27,699 nucleotides of DNA from a virus. Under the pieces are notes generated by a model. The model saw only the letters and a program-made list of their open reading frames with translations. It was not told the DNA's origin and searched no databases. Positions 2,568 to 12,404 of this stretch are shown in pieces; position 1 is the stretch's first letter; the number at the start of each line of letters is the position of its first letter. The stretch is taken from IMG/VR virus record IMGVR_UViG_3300009529_000037, positions 1 through 27,699 of that record. One strand, given 5' to 3'. A program made the position numbers and the translations under genes.

Positions 2568-2732
2568 ATGAGGCTCAAAAAACCAAAGGTATTTTCGTTC
2601 TGGTTGGACCAACGGCATATCGATTTTCTGGAATTGTTCAAAGATTTCCATAATCTATCGTCGAGAGGAGCCGCGTTGCGTGCCATCATCGATATTGTAT
2701 CCAAACTATTTCAAAAAGGAGAAACACAATGA
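2568..2732 (+). CDS. Small ribbon-helix-helix-like protein, probable regulator (54 aa)
   Basis: The 54-codon frame begins ATGAGGCTC and ends in the TGA that overlaps the next gene's ATG (ATGA at 2729-2732). The protein has a short N-terminal strand-like segment KVFSFWLD (7-14), a helix around QRHIDFLELFKDF (15-27), and a second helix starting at SSRGAALRAIIDIV (31-44). That order and length match MetJ/Arc-type DNA-binding proteins, though no family was identified with certainty. No Shine-Dalgarno precedes the start, consistent with leaderless translation from the promoter just upstream. Its position as first gene of the cassette, next to the TGTGAC repeats, suggests an autoregulator. It could also be a spurious small frame, but the exact overlap with the next gene argues against that. 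Confidence 0.6.
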   Translation: MRLKKPKVFSFWLDQRHIDFLELFKDFHNLSSRGAALRAIIDIVSKLFQKGETQ

Positions 2733-3352
2733 CCAATGTCAATTGCTCATATACTAAAATGGTACCAATAGATCAATTGAAAGAAAATCCAGTCAACCCG
2801 AATACCCATCCGTTCAGGCAAATAGAAATATTGGCCAAAATCATCAAAGAGCTGGGGTGGAGAGCCCCCATCACCGTCTCGAACCAGTCGGGATTCATCG
2901 TCCGCGGGCACGGCCGGCTCGAAGCTGCAAAAATGCTCAACCTCACCGAGGTCCCCATCGACTTCCAGGACTACCCAAACGAAACCGCAGAGCTCGCAGA
3001 CCTGGTCGCCGATAACCGAGTGTCAGATCTGTCCGTGTGGTCCGAGGCCGACCTCCTGCCCATCCTCAACGAGCTGTCCGAGTCGGGAGTCGAAATAGAA
3101 AACCTGGGATGGAAGGAAGAAGAGCTCGAAGCCATGCTCGCGCAAATGGATACCGAATCGCCTCCCGAAGACCCAGGCCAACCAGAACAACCAGACGATC
3201 GATTCGTGCGATTCCAGTTCGGAGATTATCGAGGCCTGGTCGCTCGCGAAGTCTATGAAAAGTTCGTGAACCATTATAAACGCATCCAGCTCGATACCGG
3301 GCAGCCGATGCTCACCGACATACTCAAGGAGTTATTCCATGGGGATCGTTGA
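2729..3352 (+). CDS. ParB/Srx-fold N-terminal domain protein
   Basis: A 207-residue protein with a ParB-like N-terminal domain: the region starting PVNPNTHP (21-28), the strongly conserved VRGHGRLEAA (58-67) and the following ADNR (94-97). In phages this domain is often encoded beside, or fused to, DNA methyltransferases, where it is thought to guide or support DNA modification rather than partition. The acidic, proline-rich linker around 131-146 is followed by a short C-terminal domain of unknown role. The start is set by AAGGAG at 2716-2721, seven bases before ATG, and overlaps the upstream stop. The C-terminus overlaps the methyltransferase start by 14 bases, implying translational coupling. 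No catalytic residues specific to a nuclease could be confirmed. Confidence 0.85.
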   Translation: MTNVNCSYTKMVPIDQLKENPVNPNTHPFRQIEILAKIIKELGWRAPITVSNQSGFIVRGHGRLEAAKMLNLTEVPIDFQDYPNETAELADLVADNRVSDLSVWSEADLLPILNELSESGVEIENLGWKEEELEAMLAQMDTESPPEDPGQPEQPDDRFVRFQFGDYRGLVAREVYEKFVNHYKRIQLDTGQPMLTDILKELFHGDR

Positions 3353-4346
3353 TTCGCTCAAACAGTCGGCCGTCAACAAGAAGGCCATGCTCAAAAGGTT
3401 CGGGTTCATACCGTATTCCATCCTGAAGATGTCCAGAGGCCCTCTATCCAAAAAGGTATTCACCCTGCAACATGAATATCCAGAGCGAGGTACAGTCTCA
3501 ACCGGGTTCGGGGATGTCGTTACCGACAAGGCCAAAGAATCTCTCGAAGTAAGAAAGCAAAAAGGGCTTCTCGGAGGAGTCATATCGAAACGAGCGGAAG
3601 GTGTCGCACTTCGGCAGCAACGAGAAGAACGAAACAAAGCCCCGCAAGACGAAGGCGGGAAGATGTTCGTGCCGCAATACGATGGAGGTGCCCCGGTCCG
3701 AATGAATGCTACAGTCATGCCGGCCGAGCTCGTCGAGTTCTTCATCAAGTACTACTCATCCCCAGGCCAGGTGTACCTCGATCCGTTCATGGGGCAAGGT
3801 ATCCAAATGCAAGTGGCCAAAATGTACGGCCTCGACTACTATGGGTACGACATCTCGGAAGAGTTCTTCAACTATATCAAATCGACCAAAGACAAAATCG
3901 ACGACGGCGCCACCGTCATCCAAACAACCCTCGGGGACTCTCGATACCCGACCGAAATACCCGACGACATCGGCGACTTCTCGTTCCACTCCCCGCCCTA
4001 TTGGGACATCGAGTACTATGGCGATGAGCCGGAGCAACTCGGTCGAGGAACCTACGAAGAGTTCCTCGAATCGATGTCTCAAGTCTATAAAAGCTGGTTG
4101 CCGAAATTCAAACCGGGTGCCTACCATATCGCCAATGTCAACGACTTCCGAAGAAAAGGAACCTATTATTCATACCACGCCGACACCATCCAGCTTTTCA
4201 AAGACGCAGGATGGGAGTTGTACGATACCTGGATAATCGATGGGCTCGTCGGGGGGTTGCCGAAAGGATTCGCCGTCTCTTTCAACCTCAAAAAAATAGC
4301 ACCCAAAGTCCACGAGTATGCTCTCGTGTTCAGGAAACCAGAATGA
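3339..4346 (+). CDS. DNA methyltransferase-like enzyme (SPPY motif)
   Basis: A 335-residue AdoMet-dependent DNA base amino-methyltransferase homologue. The AdoMet-binding motif I appears as YLDPFMGQG (146-154), followed by GYDISEEF (169-176) and the catalytic motif IV SPPYW (218-222). The order is motif I before motif IV. SPPY is most common in N4-cytosine enzymes but also occurs in others, so the target base is uncertain. The first 110 residues, including RFGFIPYSIL (20-29) and SRGPLSKK (32-39), form an extra N-terminal module of a type found in phage methyltransferases beside ParB genes. The start is backed by AAGGAG at 3326-3331. The gene overlaps both neighbours, the downstream GNAT gene by ATGA. 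No partner restriction endonuclease is present, so this is a lone modification enzyme, probably protecting or marking phage DNA. Because an AdoMet decarboxylase follows, its cofactor may not be ordinary AdoMet (inference). Confidence 0.87.
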   Translation: MGIVDSLKQSAVNKKAMLKRFGFIPYSILKMSRGPLSKKVFTLQHEYPERGTVSTGFGDVVTDKAKESLEVRKQKGLLGGVISKRAEGVALRQQREERNKAPQDEGGKMFVPQYDGGAPVRMNATVMPAELVEFFIKYYSSPGQVYLDPFMGQGIQMQVAKMYGLDYYGYDISEEFFNYIKSTKDKIDDGATVIQTTLGDSRYPTEIPDDIGDFSFHSPPYWDIEYYGDEPEQLGRGTYEEFLESMSQVYKSWLPKFKPGAYHIANVNDFRRKGTYYSYHADTIQLFKDAGWELYDTWIIDGLVGGLPKGFAVSFNLKKIAPKVHEYALVFRKPE

Positions 4347-4777
4347 AATATGCCACCATCGAAGACCTCGATGCCATAATGGACATCGTGAAAAAATACC
4401 GAAAAACAGTTTTTCCCTATTTTCGAGAGGACAAATTAAAAGAAAAAATACAGCGATCGGAAGTCATGCTCGATAAACAAACGTTTATCATTTTCGGTAC
4501 ATATCGAAAACGAACTTGGTTGGGTGAGGTATGTGCTCATAAAGGAGATATGGCAATCCACGAAATTGGCACTGAGGAACAAGGTTCTGGTTGTGCGCAC
4601 GATGTCTTGGCCGAGTTCATCGACAATTTTTCTGGAAAAAAGATATGGTTGACTGTGCGCAAAGAAAACGAGCGAGCAGTTCGATTCTATATAAAACACG
4701 AATTTGAAATAGTGGGAGGTATTCTGTGGTCGGATGGAAAGTTGCCGGGTTGCGTAATGATGAGGAGTCCAAAATGA
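4343..4777 (+). CDS. GNAT-family N-acetyltransferase
   Basis: A 144-residue GNAT-fold acyltransferase. The acetyl-CoA pyrophosphate-binding loop is visible as EEQGSGCA (78-85), followed by helix HDVLAEFID. The later motif TVRKENERAVRFYIKHEF (104-121) matches the conserved N-x-x-A-x-x-F/Y-Y segment of motif B. I chose the ATG at 4343 because it overlaps the methyltransferase stop as ATGA; a longer in-frame reading would lie wholly inside the methyltransferase. The acceptor cannot be read from sequence. Context between a DNA methyltransferase and an AdoMet decarboxylase suggests an amine acceptor: either a polyamine or an amino group placed on DNA. Phage Mu Mom, a DNA-modifying enzyme, also has a GNAT-type fold, which is a precedent for the fold acting on DNA, but this protein shows no clear Mom resemblance. 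Confidence 0.83.
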   Translation: MKYATIEDLDAIMDIVKKYRKTVFPYFREDKLKEKIQRSEVMLDKQTFIIFGTYRKRTWLGEVCAHKGDMAIHEIGTEEQGSGCAHDVLAEFIDNFSGKKIWLTVRKENERAVRFYIKHEFEIVGGILWSDGKLPGCVMMRSPK

Positions 4778-5094
4778 AGTTAGCTGAACATCTATTCATC
4801 ACAATAATCGGCGATGTCGCTGACGAACGGAAAACATTTCACACCCTGCTCGATGCGTGCCACAAAGCTAATGCGCGAGTGTGCGGGACCTCAAAGCACG
4901 AGTTCTATCCACGAGGGTTTTCAGCCATTGTACTCATCAGTGAGTCGCACGCAAGCGTCCACACCTGGCCGGAAAGCAACGTCGCGCTCGTGGATTTTTT
5001 TACTTGCGCAAACCCTACAGGATTCGATAATTTCATCGAAGCGTGGGAGGATGCGGGATACACAATTGCCACAAAAGAGGTGCTAAATCGATAA
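4774..5094 (+). CDS. speD: S-adenosylmethionine decarboxylase proenzyme (SpeD/SpeH-like)
   Basis: A 106-residue pyruvoyl-dependent decarboxylase of the short bacterial/archaeal AdoMet decarboxylase class. The signature ISESHASVHTWPE lies at 55-67. Self-cleavage is expected between Glu57 and Ser58, turning Ser58 into the pyruvoyl cofactor. His63 and Cys78 (in DFFTC) occupy the positions of the processing and catalytic residues of the Thermotoga enzyme. The family usually runs about 115-130 residues, so this is compact at both ends but complete in active-site residues. The product in the canonical reaction is decarboxylated AdoMet, the aminopropyl donor for spermidine synthesis. No aminopropyltransferase is in the window. 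ATG 4774 overlaps the GNAT stop and has AGGAG at 4763-4767. Some SpeD homologues decarboxylate ornithine or arginine instead, and this cannot be excluded here. Confidence 0.92.
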   Translation: MKLAEHLFITIIGDVADERKTFHTLLDACHKANARVCGTSKHEFYPRGFSAIVLISESHASVHTWPESNVALVDFFTCANPTGFDNFIEAWEDAGYTIATKEVLNR

Positions 5095-7154: not shown

Positions 7155-8589
7155 AATAGACTTCGGTGTAATCGGGTTCTCAGGTCTCAAAGAATACGGC
7201 GGATATATCGATGAAGAGTGGCACCCCAAACTTCGAGGTTATTACGGGCCGAAGTTGTATCGAGAAATGGGCGACAACAGCTCGGCAATCGGTGCTATCA
7301 AGTACATCATTCAAGCTCTCGTGCGGCAAGTCGAGTGGAGGGTTGAGCCCGCAGACGATTCGAAAGAAGCGCAAGAACAAGCAGAGTTTCTTGAAACGTG
7401 CGTAATCGATATGTCGATAACCTGGGAGGATTTCATCTCCGAGGTATTGAGTTTCCTTGAATATGGTTGGTCCTATTTTGAAATCATTTACAAGTTGCGT
7501 AAAGGGTTGGACACAAAAAACCCGAGGACACGCAGCCAGTTCGACGACGGCAAAATCGGTTGGAGGAAGCTGGCACTCCGGGCCCAGGATACTCTTGAGC
7601 GTTGGCAGTTTGACGAGGACGACAACGGCCTTCGCGGCATGCATCAATCGAGCGAGTACACAGGCAAAGCGGCGTTCATCCCTATCGAGAAGGCTTTGCT
7701 GTTTCGGACGGTGACTCGCAAAGACAATCCCGAAGGGCGCAGCATCTATCGTAACGCGGTCGTCGATTATTTCTATCTCAAGCGAATCAGCGAGATCGAG
7801 GCCATCGGCATCGAGCGCGATATGACCGGCTTGCTGACCATGGAAGTTCCTTTGCAGTTGCTTCATCCTGACGCTGATGCCAAGTCGGTCAGCCTTCGAT
7901 CGGCTTTCGAAAAGATGCTGTCCGAGTTGAAACGAGACGAGCGCGAATATGCTTTGGTTCCTCCTGAAATAGACAAAGACGGAAAGCCGACCGGATACAA
8001 ACTCAAACTTCTGAGTTCAGGCGGTCGTCGACAGATAGATACAAACGCGGTGAAGCTGTATTACAAGGTCGGCATCCTTCAATCAGTGCTCGCGCAGTTC
8101 ATCCAGCTCGGCATGAGCGGGGTCGGGTCGTTTGCTCTTGCATCGACTCAAACCGATATGTTCGCGGTGGCTCTCGGGTCGTACCTGAACACGATAGCGT
8201 CGGTCATCAATCGCTTCGGCGTATCGCGCTTGATGGCGGTCAACAGCGTAAAGCAAGATTTGTGGCCCGAGCTGGTTCACGGTGACATCGAGAGCCCGCC
8301 TCTTGCGGAGATAGGTGCATACGTGCAAGCGCTTGCTTCATCGGGTCAGTTGCCTGAAGATGAGGCCATACAACGCAAGCTTTTAGAGATCGCCAATCTG
8401 CCGATGCCCGAGAAAGAAGAAGGAGAGAAGGCAGAGAAACAGAAAAAGTCTAAAGGCGGGTTTGTACGAAAAGTAATACCTGGTCTTCACCTCGTACAAC
8501 CTTCTGGAAAATGCCCGTATTGCGGCAAGCCGGTACGAGGTAAACCAGAGCGATGTCCTCATTGCGATAGGTCATTAGTGGCAGCATGA
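7147..8589 (+). CDS. Portal protein, Mu gp29/DUF935-like, with C-terminal zinc ribbon
   Basis: A 480-residue portal that forms the DNA channel at the head vertex. Recognisable stretches are the N-terminal GPKLYREMGDNSSAIGAI, the ITWEDFISEVLSFLEYGWSYFEI region and the central RISEIEAIGIERDMTG, all in the pattern of DUF935 portals. I start it at ATG 7147 (GGGAG seven bases upstream) rather than the TTG at 7141. The tail is unusual: CPYC at 456-459 and CPHC at 470-473, separated by 10 residues rich in Lys, Arg, Gly and Pro, make a typical zinc ribbon that Mu-type portals do not normally carry. It follows a Lys/Glu-rich linker (about 423-436). The ribbon might contact DNA, the terminase or a head protein. 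Confidence 0.9.
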   Translation: MSKIDFGVIGFSGLKEYGGYIDEEWHPKLRGYYGPKLYREMGDNSSAIGAIKYIIQALVRQVEWRVEPADDSKEAQEQAEFLETCVIDMSITWEDFISEVLSFLEYGWSYFEIIYKLRKGLDTKNPRTRSQFDDGKIGWRKLALRAQDTLERWQFDEDDNGLRGMHQSSEYTGKAAFIPIEKALLFRTVTRKDNPEGRSIYRNAVVDYFYLKRISEIEAIGIERDMTGLLTMEVPLQLLHPDADAKSVSLRSAFEKMLSELKRDEREYALVPPEIDKDGKPTGYKLKLLSSGGRRQIDTNAVKLYYKVGILQSVLAQFIQLGMSGVGSFALASTQTDMFAVALGSYLNTIASVINRFGVSRLMAVNSVKQDLWPELVHGDIESPPLAEIGAYVQALASSGQLPEDEAIQRKLLEIANLPMPEKEEGEKAEKQKKSKGGFVRKVIPGLHLVQPSGKCPYCGKPVRGKPERCPHCDRSLVAA

Positions 8590-10394
8590 CTTTCGTTCAG
8601 TACTACAAACACGAGCGCATATTAAAAGCTCGACGTAAAAGAAAACCAGAATGGCAGAAGCGTCTGCCTCATGATACTCCGGCCGGTCGCGAGGCATACG
8701 CGATAGCGGCGAAGCACGAGAACAAATTCGCGCGCGCGTTTTTAGAAGCGACACAATCGCTTCTCACCAACAGAATAGCGGCGGATTTTAACGCGGTATG
8801 GCGAGCGGGCGGCGGGCCTGAGAAAGTCATGGCGACGTTGCCTTTCTTCGGCACGGACATCAAACCGGAAGTGTGGGACGATTTCATCGAGCGCATATTG
8901 AAAGCATATTCAGCAGTGATTCAAGAAGCAGGCGAAGAAAACACTGAGGAGATGAATCGCAAATTCCGAACGAACATGAAGTTCTCGCTCGAAGATAAAG
9001 AAGAAATTCCAGTCGTGCCTATCAACCCATACTCGATAGAATGGGTTCGCAATCGTTCATTAGAACTTGCGAAGCAAGGCATCTCCGACCAGCAACGCGA
9101 GGTAGTGCGCGACATCATTGATCGCGGGTTTTCTGAAGGCGTGCGTGCTGAAGAAGCATACGGCGCGATAAAGAAAAATATTGGTTTGACTCATCGCGAA
9201 TACAACGCAGTTATCAACCGCGAAATAATGCTCGAAGAAGCGGGATGGGCCGATGCCGACGTGAAACACCTGACTGAGAAATATCGTGATGAGCTTTTAG
9301 GAAAACGAGCGATGCGCATTGCGCGAACCGAAACGATGTTTGCTCAAGCACAAGGGCGGAATGCCAGTTGGCAGATGGCGCAAGATTCGGGCATTTTGCC
9401 TCCCGTCGTGCGCGAGTGGGTAGCAGTGCCAGGCGCGTGCGAAATATGTGGAGAGCTTGATGGACAGGAAGCACCGGTGGGCGGGGCGTATGAGAGCACT
9501 GAGGGTCCGGTTGAGTCTCCCCCCGCTCATCCGAACTGTTTACCGGGGGACGCGGCAGTATTGGCCTCGGGAGTTTCGGCCTCGAGTAAACGTTGGTACG
9601 ATGGAGATTTGGTCATCTTGACTACTGCCCTGGGCAACAAGCTCGCCTGCACCCCGAATCATCCTATACTCACAATGAGTGGGTGGAAAGCTGCGCATTT
9701 GCTTAACGTAGGAGATGACGTAATCAGTTACATCGGAGGAGAGAGCGTGCCCTCTTCTTGGTTCGGACATAATCAAAAGAACATGCCAGTCGTTCGAGAT
9801 AAGATATCGAATCTTGCGAAGAAGCTGGGTTTGACGTCGTCCGTACCAGTGCCAGGAACCTCCAAGGATTTCCACGGCGACGGGAACGATGCCGATGTCA
9901 CAATTATACGGACCAAGAGCTTGTTGTGGTCGAACTTCAAGTCCTCGTTGTTCAAGCATTTTGGCAAACTCAAGTTCTTCAGTCGTCGCATGAGTGAGAT
10001 GCTTTTCGCATGTAAACGCTCTTTTAAGTTTCTCTTCATGAGTTCGCGGCTTGCCTCGAACGGCATCATGAGCAGCCTTTGCTCTTTGCAGCCGTTCGCT
10101 TTTGCTCAGGCTTTGCATGTAGATTCTACCGGCTTCGCTTTGCCCTCGAATGCAAATTCCTTTGATTTTGAGAAGTCGCCGAATAACATTCCGGCTGACG
10201 CCCCAGATTTTAGCCAACGACTTCTCGCTAGTTCCAGCGATATAGTCGCCGACAATGTCATCAATGTGGATGTCCAAAGATTTTCTGGCCATGTGTATAA
10301 CCTCCAATGTTTGTCTGGTTACTATATATCACAAAACATAATTAGCCACAACTGCGCGTGTACTGAAATCTTGAAAAGAGCGAAAGGGCGATGA
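8586..10394 (+). CDS. Mu gpF-like head morphogenesis protein containing an intein
   Basis: The 602-codon frame encodes a minor head protein of the Mu gpF/SPP1 gp7 family, needed in early head assembly and found beside the portal. Typical parts are RAMRIARTETMFAQAQGRNA, CEICGELDGQEAPVGG and PPAHPN. The family's C-terminal HPNCxC motif is split: HPN ends at residue 317, a 272-residue intein occupies 318-589, and CACTEILKRAKGR follows. After splicing the protein would be 330 residues, a normal length, with HPNCAC restored. The gene overlaps the portal stop (ATGA). The frame is uninterrupted through the intein, so splicing happens at the protein level. Confidence 0.92.
   Translation: MTFVQYYKHERILKARRKRKPEWQKRLPHDTPAGREAYAIAAKHENKFARAFLEATQSLLTNRIAADFNAVWRAGGGPEKVMATLPFFGTDIKPEVWDDFIERILKAYSAVIQEAGEENTEEMNRKFRTNMKFSLEDKEEIPVVPINPYSIEWVRNRSLELAKQGISDQQREVVRDIIDRGFSEGVRAEEAYGAIKKNIGLTHREYNAVINREIMLEEAGWADADVKHLTEKYRDELLGKRAMRIARTETMFAQAQGRNASWQMAQDSGILPPVVREWVAVPGACEICGELDGQEAPVGGAYESTEGPVESPPAHPNCLPGDAAVLASGVSASSKRWYDGDLVILTTALGNKLACTPNHPILTMSGWKAAHLLNVGDDVISYIGGESVPSSWFGHNQKNMPVVRDKISNLAKKLGLTSSVPVPGTSKDFHGDGNDADVTIIRTKSLLWSNFKSSLFKHFGKLKFFSRRMSEMLFACKRSFKFLFMSSRLASNGIMSSLCSLQPFAFAQALHVDSTGFALPSNANSFDFEKSPNNIPADAPDFSQRLLASSSDIVADNVINVDVQRFSGHVYNLQCLSGYYISQNIISHNCACTEILKRAKGR
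9540..10292 (-). CDS. Antisense Vsr-like (EDxHD) homing endonuclease nested in the intein
   Basis: A 250-residue protein encoded on the strand opposite the intein. ATG 10292-10290 is preceded by GGAGG (complement of 10301-10305), eight bases away, so the longer TTG start at 10307 is not needed. Residues about 24-44 (KSLAKIWGVSRNVIRRLLKIK) form a helix-turn-helix. Residues 105-180 follow the Vsr-like fold: TEELEFAKMLEQRGLEV, then CDIGIVPVAVEILGGSWHW with Asp132, Glu141 and His148 as likely catalytic residues, then RKIRYLISNDWHVLLI. This matches the EDxHD homing endonucleases first noted in introns and fractured intein genes of phages. It would cut intein-free copies of the head gene and drive spread of the intein. 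Its stop codon (TTA on the plus strand, 9540-9542) abuts intein Cys1, and its codons lie in exact register with the sense codons. Confidence 0.85.
   Translation of the reverse strand: MARKSLDIHIDDIVGDYIAGTSEKSLAKIWGVSRNVIRRLLKIKGICIRGQSEAGRIYMQSLSKSERLQRAKAAHDAVRGKPRTHEEKLKRAFTCEKHLTHATTEELEFAKMLEQRGLEVRPQQALGPYNCDIGIVPVAVEILGGSWHWYGRRQTQLLRKIRYLISNDWHVLLIMSEPRRGHALSSDVTDYVISYVKQMRSFPPTHCEYRMIRGAGELVAQGSSQDDQISIVPTFTRGRNSRGQYCRVPR
10323..10351 (-). promoter_or_regulatory. Candidate antisense promoter for the nested endonuclease
   Basis: On the minus strand TTGTGG (plus 10351-10346) is followed after 17 bases by TATATA (plus 10328-10323), preceded by TGA so that it forms an extended -10 (TGnTATA). 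Transcription would start near 10316, about 24 bases before the endonuclease ATG, leaving room for the GGAGG site. The promoter lies in the codons of the intein's last block, so the whole expression unit is inside the intein. The -35 match is weak. Confidence 0.4.
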
Positions 10395-10397
10395 CCA

Positions 10398-12404
10398 ATG
10401 CCTGAGTTCACACGAGAATTTTTAGAAGAAGTATATCGATTAGCAAAGAAGACATTGCCGGGCTGGGCGTATGCGACACTGCGCGCGCAGGCCAGGGCGG
10501 TATCGGGCGGGCGTGCAGCGCACCGAACGGATATTCCTAATGTGTTCGAGAAGGTATCGTTAGGAGTATTGAATTCCGAATCGATGAAGGACTTGTCCGA
10601 TGTTGAGGTGAAGGCCATTTGGGATCGATTGAACCAGTGGCACGCCAACGCCTTGAAGAAGAAAGGGCCGACCGATGTCCTTGTAACTGCTGCTCGTTCG
10701 GTGTTCGACATCATCCAAGATCGGAATATCAAATTCAAATCAAGCCCTTTGTGTGACCTGTTAGAGACTCCTGACAACATACCTGACGTAAAGAAATTGG
10801 TAGCATTTCTACCGATGACGGGTCCGGACGGGGCGTCGATAGCTTTTGTCGGTGCTTCTCCAAGCAAAATAGAGATCGCTCGGAATGAACCGTATGTTGG
10901 GCCGATTCGCAAGACATTCGAATCCAAATACCTGGTTCCTCTCGAGGTGGCTCGTGATGAAGTGATATTGGGGTATGCATGCCCTGAAGCATTCGCCGGA
11001 GAAAAAGGAAAAGTTAGAGAGCCGACCGATGAAGAGATAGCGATTTGGAAAGATTGGCTGTTCGACGAGCTCGACAAGGCGAGACCTCAAATTGTTATTG
11101 CTCTGGGACAGACCGCGCGCAAAGCGTTAGGCGATCGTGCTGATTTTGTCATGCCTCACCCATCTGCGGTAGACCGATTCGGAGATTCGGGAGAAGTCGC
11201 ACGCAAGATTAAACGCATCAAAGAGGCTTTATCCGATATTGAGAAGGCCGACCTCGGTGCAAAATGGTTCGAGATTTTTCCGAAAAGCGGCAAAGGTAAG
11301 TTCTCGTATCAGCATCATTGGCGAGGGCTCAGCGAAGATGAGACAAAATTATCTGATAAAGAATTGCTTGCTACAGATCATTCTTTACACGGGGACTTGA
11401 GGTTGGGCGGGGACAAAGGTCTTTGGGGTTGGACGATATTCCTGGGGGAGACAAAAGAGAATCGTGGGAAGGATGGCGATAAATTCATTTCGATGAAGCC
11501 TGGTGGCAGTTTGCGAGTTACGCCGAAGACGATTCATCCAGAAGAATGGCTTCGGGTCGGGTCGCAATTGGCTGGTCAAATAAACAAACCAGGAGAGCCG
11601 GGTTCGGGTCCTGAATCGCATTCAAAATTCTTTGTAGAGGATTCTGGGACGTACGAATTGGGAGTGGCGACAGAGCACTCTATTGAAATTTTCCTTGACG
11701 GCAAGCATTTAAATGGTAAATATTTGTTAATATATCCTCGATTAGGCGGGGAGCGAGTTTGGCTGATTGACAAGCCGAAATCTCAAACGCCGCGAGCCGA
11801 GGAAGAAAAACTCGCTGATGTCATAAGCGAGCAGCGCAAGAAGGGGCGGCAATATGTCGTCTGGGCAAAGCCGGGAATGAAACCGGTTTTATACAACACG
11901 CGCTCTGGCGAAGTGGTCAAAGGCGAAATGATTCCCATCTCGAAAGCAGATCCCCTCAAAAAGATTGTCTACGGCATTGTTGCCGATCCCTATGGCGTCC
12001 GAGGTGCCCAGGCCGATGCACATGATGACTGGATGATGCCATCCACTGTCGAAGGCATGGCGCACGATTACATCGGAAAAGACATGGTGATCGGGTTTCA
12101 ACACAATAAAAAAGCTGATGCTTGTCCCGTAGAAAGTTGGGTCGAACAGTATCCCAGCCCAGAGGATTATCTCAAGGCGATGAAGGGTGAACCGCATAAA
12201 GTCTATCGACGTAAATTCGGAGATGACGTGATTCATTCAGGTTCATGGGGTCTTGGTGTTCGACTCGGCGAAAAAGAGTGGGGTGCTTACGAGAAAGGCG
12301 AAATCAATGCGTTCAGCCCGGGCGGGCTGGGTCTTCGCACGCCTATCACTCCATCTCAAATGCCGAAGGTCGAGTTCATCGATCTTGTACCGAAAGGAAT
12401 CTAA
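10398..12404 (+). CDS. Fusion protein: UDG-like domain, LigD phosphoesterase-like domain, XkdF-like prohead protease
   Basis: A 668-residue multidomain head gene. Residues about 133-278 resemble family 4/5 uracil-DNA glycosylases: IAFVGASPSK (148-157), EPYVGP (164-169), RPQIVIALG (229-237) and MPHPSA (252-257). The cysteines that hold the iron-sulfur cluster in family 4 are not evident. Residues about 300-460 resemble the 3'-phosphoesterase domain of LigD: FSYQHHW (302-308), DHSLHGDLRL (327-336) and VWLIDKP. Residues about 517-650 match the XkdF/S78_2 putative phage serine protease: IVYGIVADPYG (523-533), QADAHDDWM (538-546), VIGFQHN (564-570) and INAFSPGGLG (636-645). The protease would mature the prohead. 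The two DNA-repair-like domains in a capsid gene are unusual. N-terminal residues 1-130 are helical and unassigned. Confidence 0.78.
   Translation: MPEFTREFLEEVYRLAKKTLPGWAYATLRAQARAVSGGRAAHRTDIPNVFEKVSLGVLNSESMKDLSDVEVKAIWDRLNQWHANALKKKGPTDVLVTAARSVFDIIQDRNIKFKSSPLCDLLETPDNIPDVKKLVAFLPMTGPDGASIAFVGASPSKIEIARNEPYVGPIRKTFESKYLVPLEVARDEVILGYACPEAFAGEKGKVREPTDEEIAIWKDWLFDELDKARPQIVIALGQTARKALGDRADFVMPHPSAVDRFGDSGEVARKIKRIKEALSDIEKADLGAKWFEIFPKSGKGKFSYQHHWRGLSEDETKLSDKELLATDHSLHGDLRLGGDKGLWGWTIFLGETKENRGKDGDKFISMKPGGSLRVTPKTIHPEEWLRVGSQLAGQINKPGEPGSGPESHSKFFVEDSGTYELGVATEHSIEIFLDGKHLNGKYLLIYPRLGGERVWLIDKPKSQTPRAEEEKLADVISEQRKKGRQYVVWAKPGMKPVLYNTRSGEVVKGEMIPISKADPLKKIVYGIVADPYGVRGAQADAHDDWMMPSTVEGMAHDYIGKDMVIGFQHNKKADACPVESWVEQYPSPEDYLKAMKGEPHKVYRRKFGDDVIHSGSWGLGVRLGEKEWGAYEKGEINAFSPGGLGLRTPITPSQMPKVEFIDLVPKGI

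Follow-up and report, generated by a model that had tools for sequence, protein, structure and literature searches.

The window analysed here, a complete IMG/VR virus record of 27,699 bases that is possibly a genome fragment, contains a Mu-like structural module in which terminase, Mu-type portal, MuF and XkdF protease could be recognised by family matches. The MuF-like head gene of this module carries an insert of 272 codons that is in frame with it and resembles an intein, and the strand opposite the insert holds a second long open reading frame. The sense-strand features are as follows.

8586-10394, + strand: ORF of the MuF-like head gene, 602 aa, open throughout
8586..9536, + strand: N-extein, MuF-like head morphogenesis protein (PHROG head morphogenesis families, Phage_Mu_F)
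9537..10352, + strand: intein of 272 residues, Cys1-Asn272 (Pfam Intein_splicing, profile matches to solved inteins, AF2 model), with Cys1 at 9537-9539 and Asn272 at 10350-10352
10353..10394, + strand: C-extein from Cys+1 (10353-10355), including the stop codon (ORF translation)

The insert matches Pfam Intein_splicing (6.4e-10, above the family cut-off), contains the motifs TPNHPIL and GHVYNL...ISHN, and displays the intein hallmarks of Cys1, a block B TxxH, blocks F and G, and a terminal Asn preceding Cys+1. A profile of 28 intein homologues could be matched to solved inteins, namely KlbA (6.5e-11) and Mtu RecA (2.3e-8), and among the homologues C1, T39, N41 and H42 are invariant and N272 is nearly so. 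The splicing halves extend approximately over residues 1-66 and 232-272 with a linker between them; in the AlphaFold2 (AF2) model of the sense intein these halves are confident and most of the linker has a pLDDT below 50. A Hint fold is evident from the modelled halves, from the profile matches and from the PDB inteins retrieved by Foldseek, with whole-chain scores that are depressed by the low-confidence linker. There is no sign of a group I intron, because the insert continues the reading frame of its host gene and its family matches are to inteins.

The original prediction described this intein as intact in the sense frame and as lacking a sense endonuclease in its middle, and both points are borne out by a reading frame that is open throughout and by Pfam/PHROG-type family searches in which the sense linker matched no endonuclease or nuclease family. 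The canonical maxi-intein arrangement, with an endonuclease in frame with the splicing domain, is thus not found in this intein. A degenerate sense endonuclease in the linker was also considered and is ruled out by the absent family match together with the low-confidence model of the linker.

The antisense nuclease gene and its product

The opposite strand encodes a protein of 250 residues, whose gene covers 753 of the 816 nt of the intein and has the following features.

9540..10292, - strand: gene of an EDxHD/Vsr-like nuclease (putative homing endonuclease), 250 codons followed by TAA, each codon facing one sense codon in exact register
10300..10305, - strand: Shine-Dalgarno sequence GGAGGT, 7 nt before the ATG, under the intein codons Asn-Leu-Gln (sequence)
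10290..10292, - strand: start codon ATG, complement of the sense His252 codon CAT in intein block F
10164..10265, - strand: helix-turn-helix (HTH) region, residues ~10-43 (HTH families in many homologues; helices in the model)
9762..9983, - strand: catalytic core, residues ~104-177 (3r3p alignment over this stretch; conservation)
9975-9977, - strand: Glu106, catalytic core, near-invariant
9897-9899, - strand: Asp132, catalytic core
9870-9872, - strand: Glu141, catalytic core
9849-9851, - strand: His148, catalytic core
9540..9542, - strand: stop codon TAA, complement of the intein Leu2 codon TTA

The frame thus starts opposite sense His252 and stops opposite sense Leu2, in agreement with the proposal that it reaches from just after Cys1 to His252. 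In block F, VYNL is preceded by His in 129 of 155 loci (CAT in 113, CAC in 16; the exteins, for comparison, have 339 CAT and 540 CAC), and the antisense start at this position is ATG or GTG in 129 of the 155. About 26 of the 155 loci do not have ATG or GTG exactly at the His position, and in three loci (L012, L022 and L070) the sense His is displaced and the antisense start has shifted with it by one codon. A Shine-Dalgarno-like GGAGG or GAGG precedes the antisense start in most loci and is kept even in several that have different sense residues there (for example, DASSL, DISSQ and SVTSS).

Searches with the lone antisense protein gave only a weak match in Pfam (MTES_1575, 0.0033) and none in the PDB, so that a family profile was needed to identify the nuclease. 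This profile matches the catalytic domain of the EDxHD homing endonuclease I-Bth0305I (PDB identifier 3r3p; E 3.4e-6 and 1.1e-5), the DUF559-like endonuclease 3hrl and, weakly, Vsr (1cw0, 0.098). The AF2 model of the antisense protein, computed from 45 aligned sequences, has a mean pLDDT of 92 and a pTM of 0.73, and a Foldseek search against the PDB initiated with this model places 3r3p first (probability 1.00, TM-score of 0.62 normalised to the target, E 1.1e-3). The Pfam MTES_1575 REase family was found in 10 of 21 antisense homologues, among which HTH families are also common; a defence-system library yielded no match. The original prediction of a Vsr-like nuclease is therefore upheld by both profile and fold.

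The catalytic residues are strongly conserved among 166 homologues (Glu106 in 163, Asp132 and Glu141 in 164 each, and Tyr129 in 163-164). The E and the first D of the EDxHD signature correspond to Glu106 and Asp132, an assignment to the signature letters that is our own, and the second, final Asp could not be located from the conservation of the 166 homologues. Of the EDxHD core as originally proposed, Asp132, Glu141 and His148 do occupy the positions given for them; the signature as a whole could be only partly retraced, with the second Asp missing from it and His148 present in 116 of 166 homologues, that is, absent in ~30%.

Selection on the two strands

The two genes lie in an opposite register in which sense position 3 pairs with antisense position 1 and vice versa, and the wobble positions therefore reveal which strand is constrained. 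Over 15 independent pairs of loci, differences at sense positions 1/2/3 are distributed as 27/19/54% in the N-exteins, 36/13/51% in the N-inteins and 31/15/55% in the C-inteins, and as 50/17/34% in the linkers. Selection was also estimated as omega from 14 pairs, each single change being scored for what it does to the sense and to the antisense reading (kappa set to 2, with 95% confidence intervals from a bootstrap). Omega for the antisense strand is 0.12 (0.10-0.15) in the linker, 0.24 (0.14-0.38) in the N-intein and 0.22 (0.10-0.46) in the C-intein, and 1.27 (0.88-1.98) in the extein control, as expected where there is no antisense gene. The corresponding sense values are 0.34 in the linker, 0.13 in the N-intein, 0.08 in the C-intein and 0.11 in the extein, and the picture is unchanged at kappa 1 and 4. 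On account of these regional values the linker is chiefly nuclease gene and the splicing halves are coding on both strands; in these halves, purifying selection acts on both strands. A comparison of the phages Keitabear and Sampson points the same way, with 79% identity between the nucleases and 65% between the sense inteins.

Codon usage carries a further trace of the overlap. The nuclease codons TTA, CTA and TCA read as stops on the sense strand, and loci with an intact sense frame use none of them among 3,028 codons for Leu and 2,743 for Ser, where the exteins of the same loci lead one to expect ~556 Leu and 453 Ser (~1,009 of 5,771); this zero is partly a matter of definition, as intact means that the sense frame is open, though the loci were not chosen for sense openness. 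The sense intein is missing from Acinetobacter phage P1068 and from its relative L046, and there TTA or CTA accounts for 9 of the 19 Leu codons in the former and 11 of the 22 in the latter.

Distribution and mobility

A tblastn search with the antisense protein retrieved 130 phage records from INPHARED and two plasmid records. Of the 23 regions that were fetched, those bearing the intein have the sense protein as their sole annotation at the element; the records of Snoke and KMB36 note an intein, and the nested antisense gene is annotated in none. Scans of viral contigs with the single protein found nothing, and further loci were collected by profile searches with subgroup alignments over IMG/VR and GTDB contigs, giving 208 loci of which 166 are unique. 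A sense ORF of at least 300 aa lies exactly opposite the codon register of the nuclease in 161 of the 166, the other two opposite frames being usually short, and this continuity of the sense ORF differs from a fractured gene, in which host gene and intein are split around the nuclease. A set of 77 diverse sense ORFs gave 67 matches to Intein_splicing, 62 to Phage_Mu_F, five to Phage_min_cap2 and one to a dCMP deaminase.

Since the 166 loci had been found through the nuclease, an independent sample was drawn from IMG/VR in which the query was limited to residues 1-70 of the sense intein. In this sample, which comprises the best 80 matches to the window of 560 confirmed and from which more distant relatives could differ, all 66 unique loci have the antisense nuclease in register and intact; apparent in-frame stops in nine of them fall at the natural C-terminus of the nuclease. 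The original prediction had proposed a search of phage genomes for other inteins with a reverse-strand nuclease, which did uncover them, and had named as adverse evidence an antisense frame broken where the sense linker is conserved. The opposite was seen, in that the linker evolves as antisense coding sequence and the nuclease stands free where the sense intein is absent.

Such free-standing relatives of the nuclease are found in P1068 (L014, 2309-3202) and in the loci L046 (2384-3394) and L199 (2453-3169), where the sense intein is missing and the nuclease gene is convergent with, and lies directly after, an uninterrupted muF. They may represent an ancestral or an escaped state. In Virus Rctr197k (KX853510; L013, 616-1968), an intein of the same kind interrupts a dCMP/cytidine deaminase gene.

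Exact empty sites are present in phages related to intein carriers. A joined-flank query matched 900 of 900 nt in Geodirt, Sanjuju and other Gordonia phages, the filled counterparts being Vivi2 (948 bp) and Nordenberg or Lennon (825 bp), and 767 of 767 nt in many Kagunaviruses, the filled counterpart being Snoke. The muF flanks of Geodirt are 95% identical to those of Vivi2. These empty sites belong to homologous elements, and no empty-site relative of the phage of the window was found in the sequences searched. Vivi2 and Keitabear have exteins that are 99.5% and 98% identical and inteins that are 36% identical at the same site; the exteins of the Kagunaviruses Snoke and KMB36 are 95-96% identical and their inteins occupy different sites. 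Judged from sequence comparison, the empty sites, the divergent versions at one Gordonia site, the two Kagunavirus sites, the deaminase host and the free-standing copies, in what is a sporadic distribution, indicate a mobile element.

Several database entries touched by these loci merit comment. The deaminase gene of Rctr197k is annotated as 'putative head morphogenesis protein', a label that probably came from the intein. The GenBank mat_peptide of the Snoke intein (L002, 2405-3034; MK931441, 4329-4958) has 210 codons, where a note in the same record gives 273 residues (Cys244-Cys516) and the present analysis 272 codons; the feature agrees with neither. Salmonella phage GE_vB_M5 (L015; MG969410), an UNVERIFIED record, has disrupted frames on both strands through sequencing error or decay, and it was left out as evidence of decay. 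The PHROG 'head protein' model phrog_15127 contains the intein, as the isolated intein aligns to its positions 244-489 (5.5e-34); the shadow sequence is therefore now inside a reference library, and the model may be taken as a warning that such libraries store the shadow.

Interpretation and relation to known systems

The evidence supports the reading of the locus as an intein with an EDxHD/Vsr-like nuclease nested antisense within it. We consider it very probable that the element is a mobile intein that divides its two functions between the DNA strands, a mini-intein of the Hint type in sense and a free nuclease that drives homing in antisense. On the sense strand of muF, the contiguous mini-intein would splice itself out of the head protein, making the insertion harmless. 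An antisense transcript would yield, from its own initiation site, a free nuclease with an N-terminal HTH region and an I-Bth0305I/Vsr-like core. In co-infecting phages with an intein-free muF, this enzyme would cleave at the insertion site, and repair by recombination would then copy the whole element. The timing of such a free nuclease could differ from that of muF, which is expressed late; if so, the enzyme would follow a schedule of its own, uncoupled from the late structural gene it inhabits.

An alternative that we regard as improbable accepts the nuclease as real and made, and assigns it the exclusion of co-infecting phages by muF cutting, or Vsr-like DNA repair, as its main work, with the spread of the intein as a by-product. 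Its Vsr and DUF559 relatives include repair and other nucleases, homologues stand free beside muF genes, and homing nucleases in phages are known to act in exclusion. However, the nuclease remains nested in an intein that is optional and confined to defined sites, with precise empty alleles and with divergent versions at one site; this is the signature of homing, with which exclusion is in any case compatible. It is more improbable still that a former homing nuclease has fallen silent and stays open only through the constraint of the sense frame. A simple consensus scan, with a consensus that may not suit the host, detected no sigma-70 promoter-like site just upstream on the antisense strand. 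Against silence stand the strong purifying selection on the antisense codons, with the sense linker as the less constrained strand, the catalytic residues kept in 163-164 of 166 homologues, and the absence of any interrupted nuclease among the 66 loci sampled through the N-intein (from the best 80 of 560).

Next to no credence can be given to the view that the antisense ORF shadows the sense intein by coincidence. The register does favour long shadow ORFs, the chance of one this long being ~0.3% given the extein codon usage of the window and that of a fully open opposite frame a median of ~0.7% per locus, which is not negligible in GC-rich genomes; sense conservation is also genuinely mirrored, the sense DFHGDG lying opposite the catalytic core. 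The 0.3% figure is weak by itself. However, the codon-position and omega tests with their extein control reject a shadow artefact, as linker changes fall at the antisense wobble and antisense omega is 0.12 there against 1.27 in exteins. Moreover, the antisense model has a pLDDT of 92 against less than 50 in most of the sense linker, the antisense family matches I-Bth0305I, the Shine-Dalgarno sequence and start are conserved, and free-standing homologues exist without any sense frame. Homology, substitution pattern and structure thus confirm that the antisense ORF is far more than chance. An equally negligible prospect, that the sense insert does not splice and is a tolerated insertion serving only as a nuclease gene in muF, is countered by sense omega of 0.13 and 0.08 in the splicing halves, confident Hint halves, the conservation of C1, of TxNH and of the terminal N before Cys+1, and a sense frame that is open in 161 of 166 loci.

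The antisense nuclease resembles I-Bth0305I and the EDxHD enzymes of phage group I introns in its catalytic profile and fold, in the conserved Glu106, Asp132 and Glu141 and in a separate DNA-binding region. It differs in that its gene occupies the antisense strand of an intein and not an intron, that no second Asp could be located, and that His148 is only partly conserved. Mobile inteins with in-frame nucleases are known, and such maxi-inteins with LAGLIDADG or HNH domains share with the present element the Hint halves, insertion at a conserved motif and optional presence at exact sites; here, in contrast, the nuclease is a protein of its own, encoded by the other strand in a gene that extends across the splicing halves. 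Fractured genes, in which split inteins occur with free-standing EDxHD endonucleases, were reportedly described by Dassa et al. in 2009. The present element likewise pairs an intein with an EDxHD-type nuclease as a separate protein, but neither its host gene nor its intein is broken, and the nuclease is nested in antisense orientation, not placed between gene halves.

An antisense homing gene within a self-splicing element has a precedent in nuclear group I introns, for example, Dir.S956-2 of Didymium (PMC3679873); there the gene lies in a peripheral part of the ribozyme, whereas here both strands code for protein, including the splicing domain, in one register. The intein of the capsid morphogenesis gene of Escherichia phage Snoke, absent in K1ind2 (PMC6776784), is a homologue of the same element; its record does not annotate the antisense nuclease, and the portions of that publication that concern the intein do not mention one. 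We found no earlier report of an antisense endonuclease in an intein in the open-access literature; one elsewhere is possible but unlikely. The parts come from known families, and the architecture of two strands in one register is new as far as checked.

It is likely that these loci form a widespread and unrecognised class of double-coded mobile elements, in which a splicing domain and an independent homing endonuclease share two strands and one codon register, with ribosome-binding site, start and stop in conserved intein codons. In-frame fusion and split or free-standing pairs would then not be the only ways for an intein to carry a homing endonuclease. The arrangement is common in phages (130 INPHARED records and 560 confirmed N-intein loci in IMG/VR), the nested gene being unannotated in the records examined, and it offers a clear natural case of long antisense double coding with both products assayable, which bears on the origin and upkeep of overlapping genes. 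As empty target sites have already been sequenced in Gordonia and Escherichia phages, homing is directly testable.

Two further regions of the window deserve mention. In the gene after muF (10398-12404, + strand), a uracil-DNA glycosylase superfamily domain (1.1e-12) is joined to an XkdF-like phage serine protease (2.2e-11), and we know of no other such fusion in a capsid module. Upstream of the terminase, positions 2729-5091 (+ strand) encode a ParB_N protein, an N6/N4 DNA methylase, an S-adenosylmethionine decarboxylase (5.5e-20) and a probable acetyltransferase, the last recognised by eye without a Pfam match.
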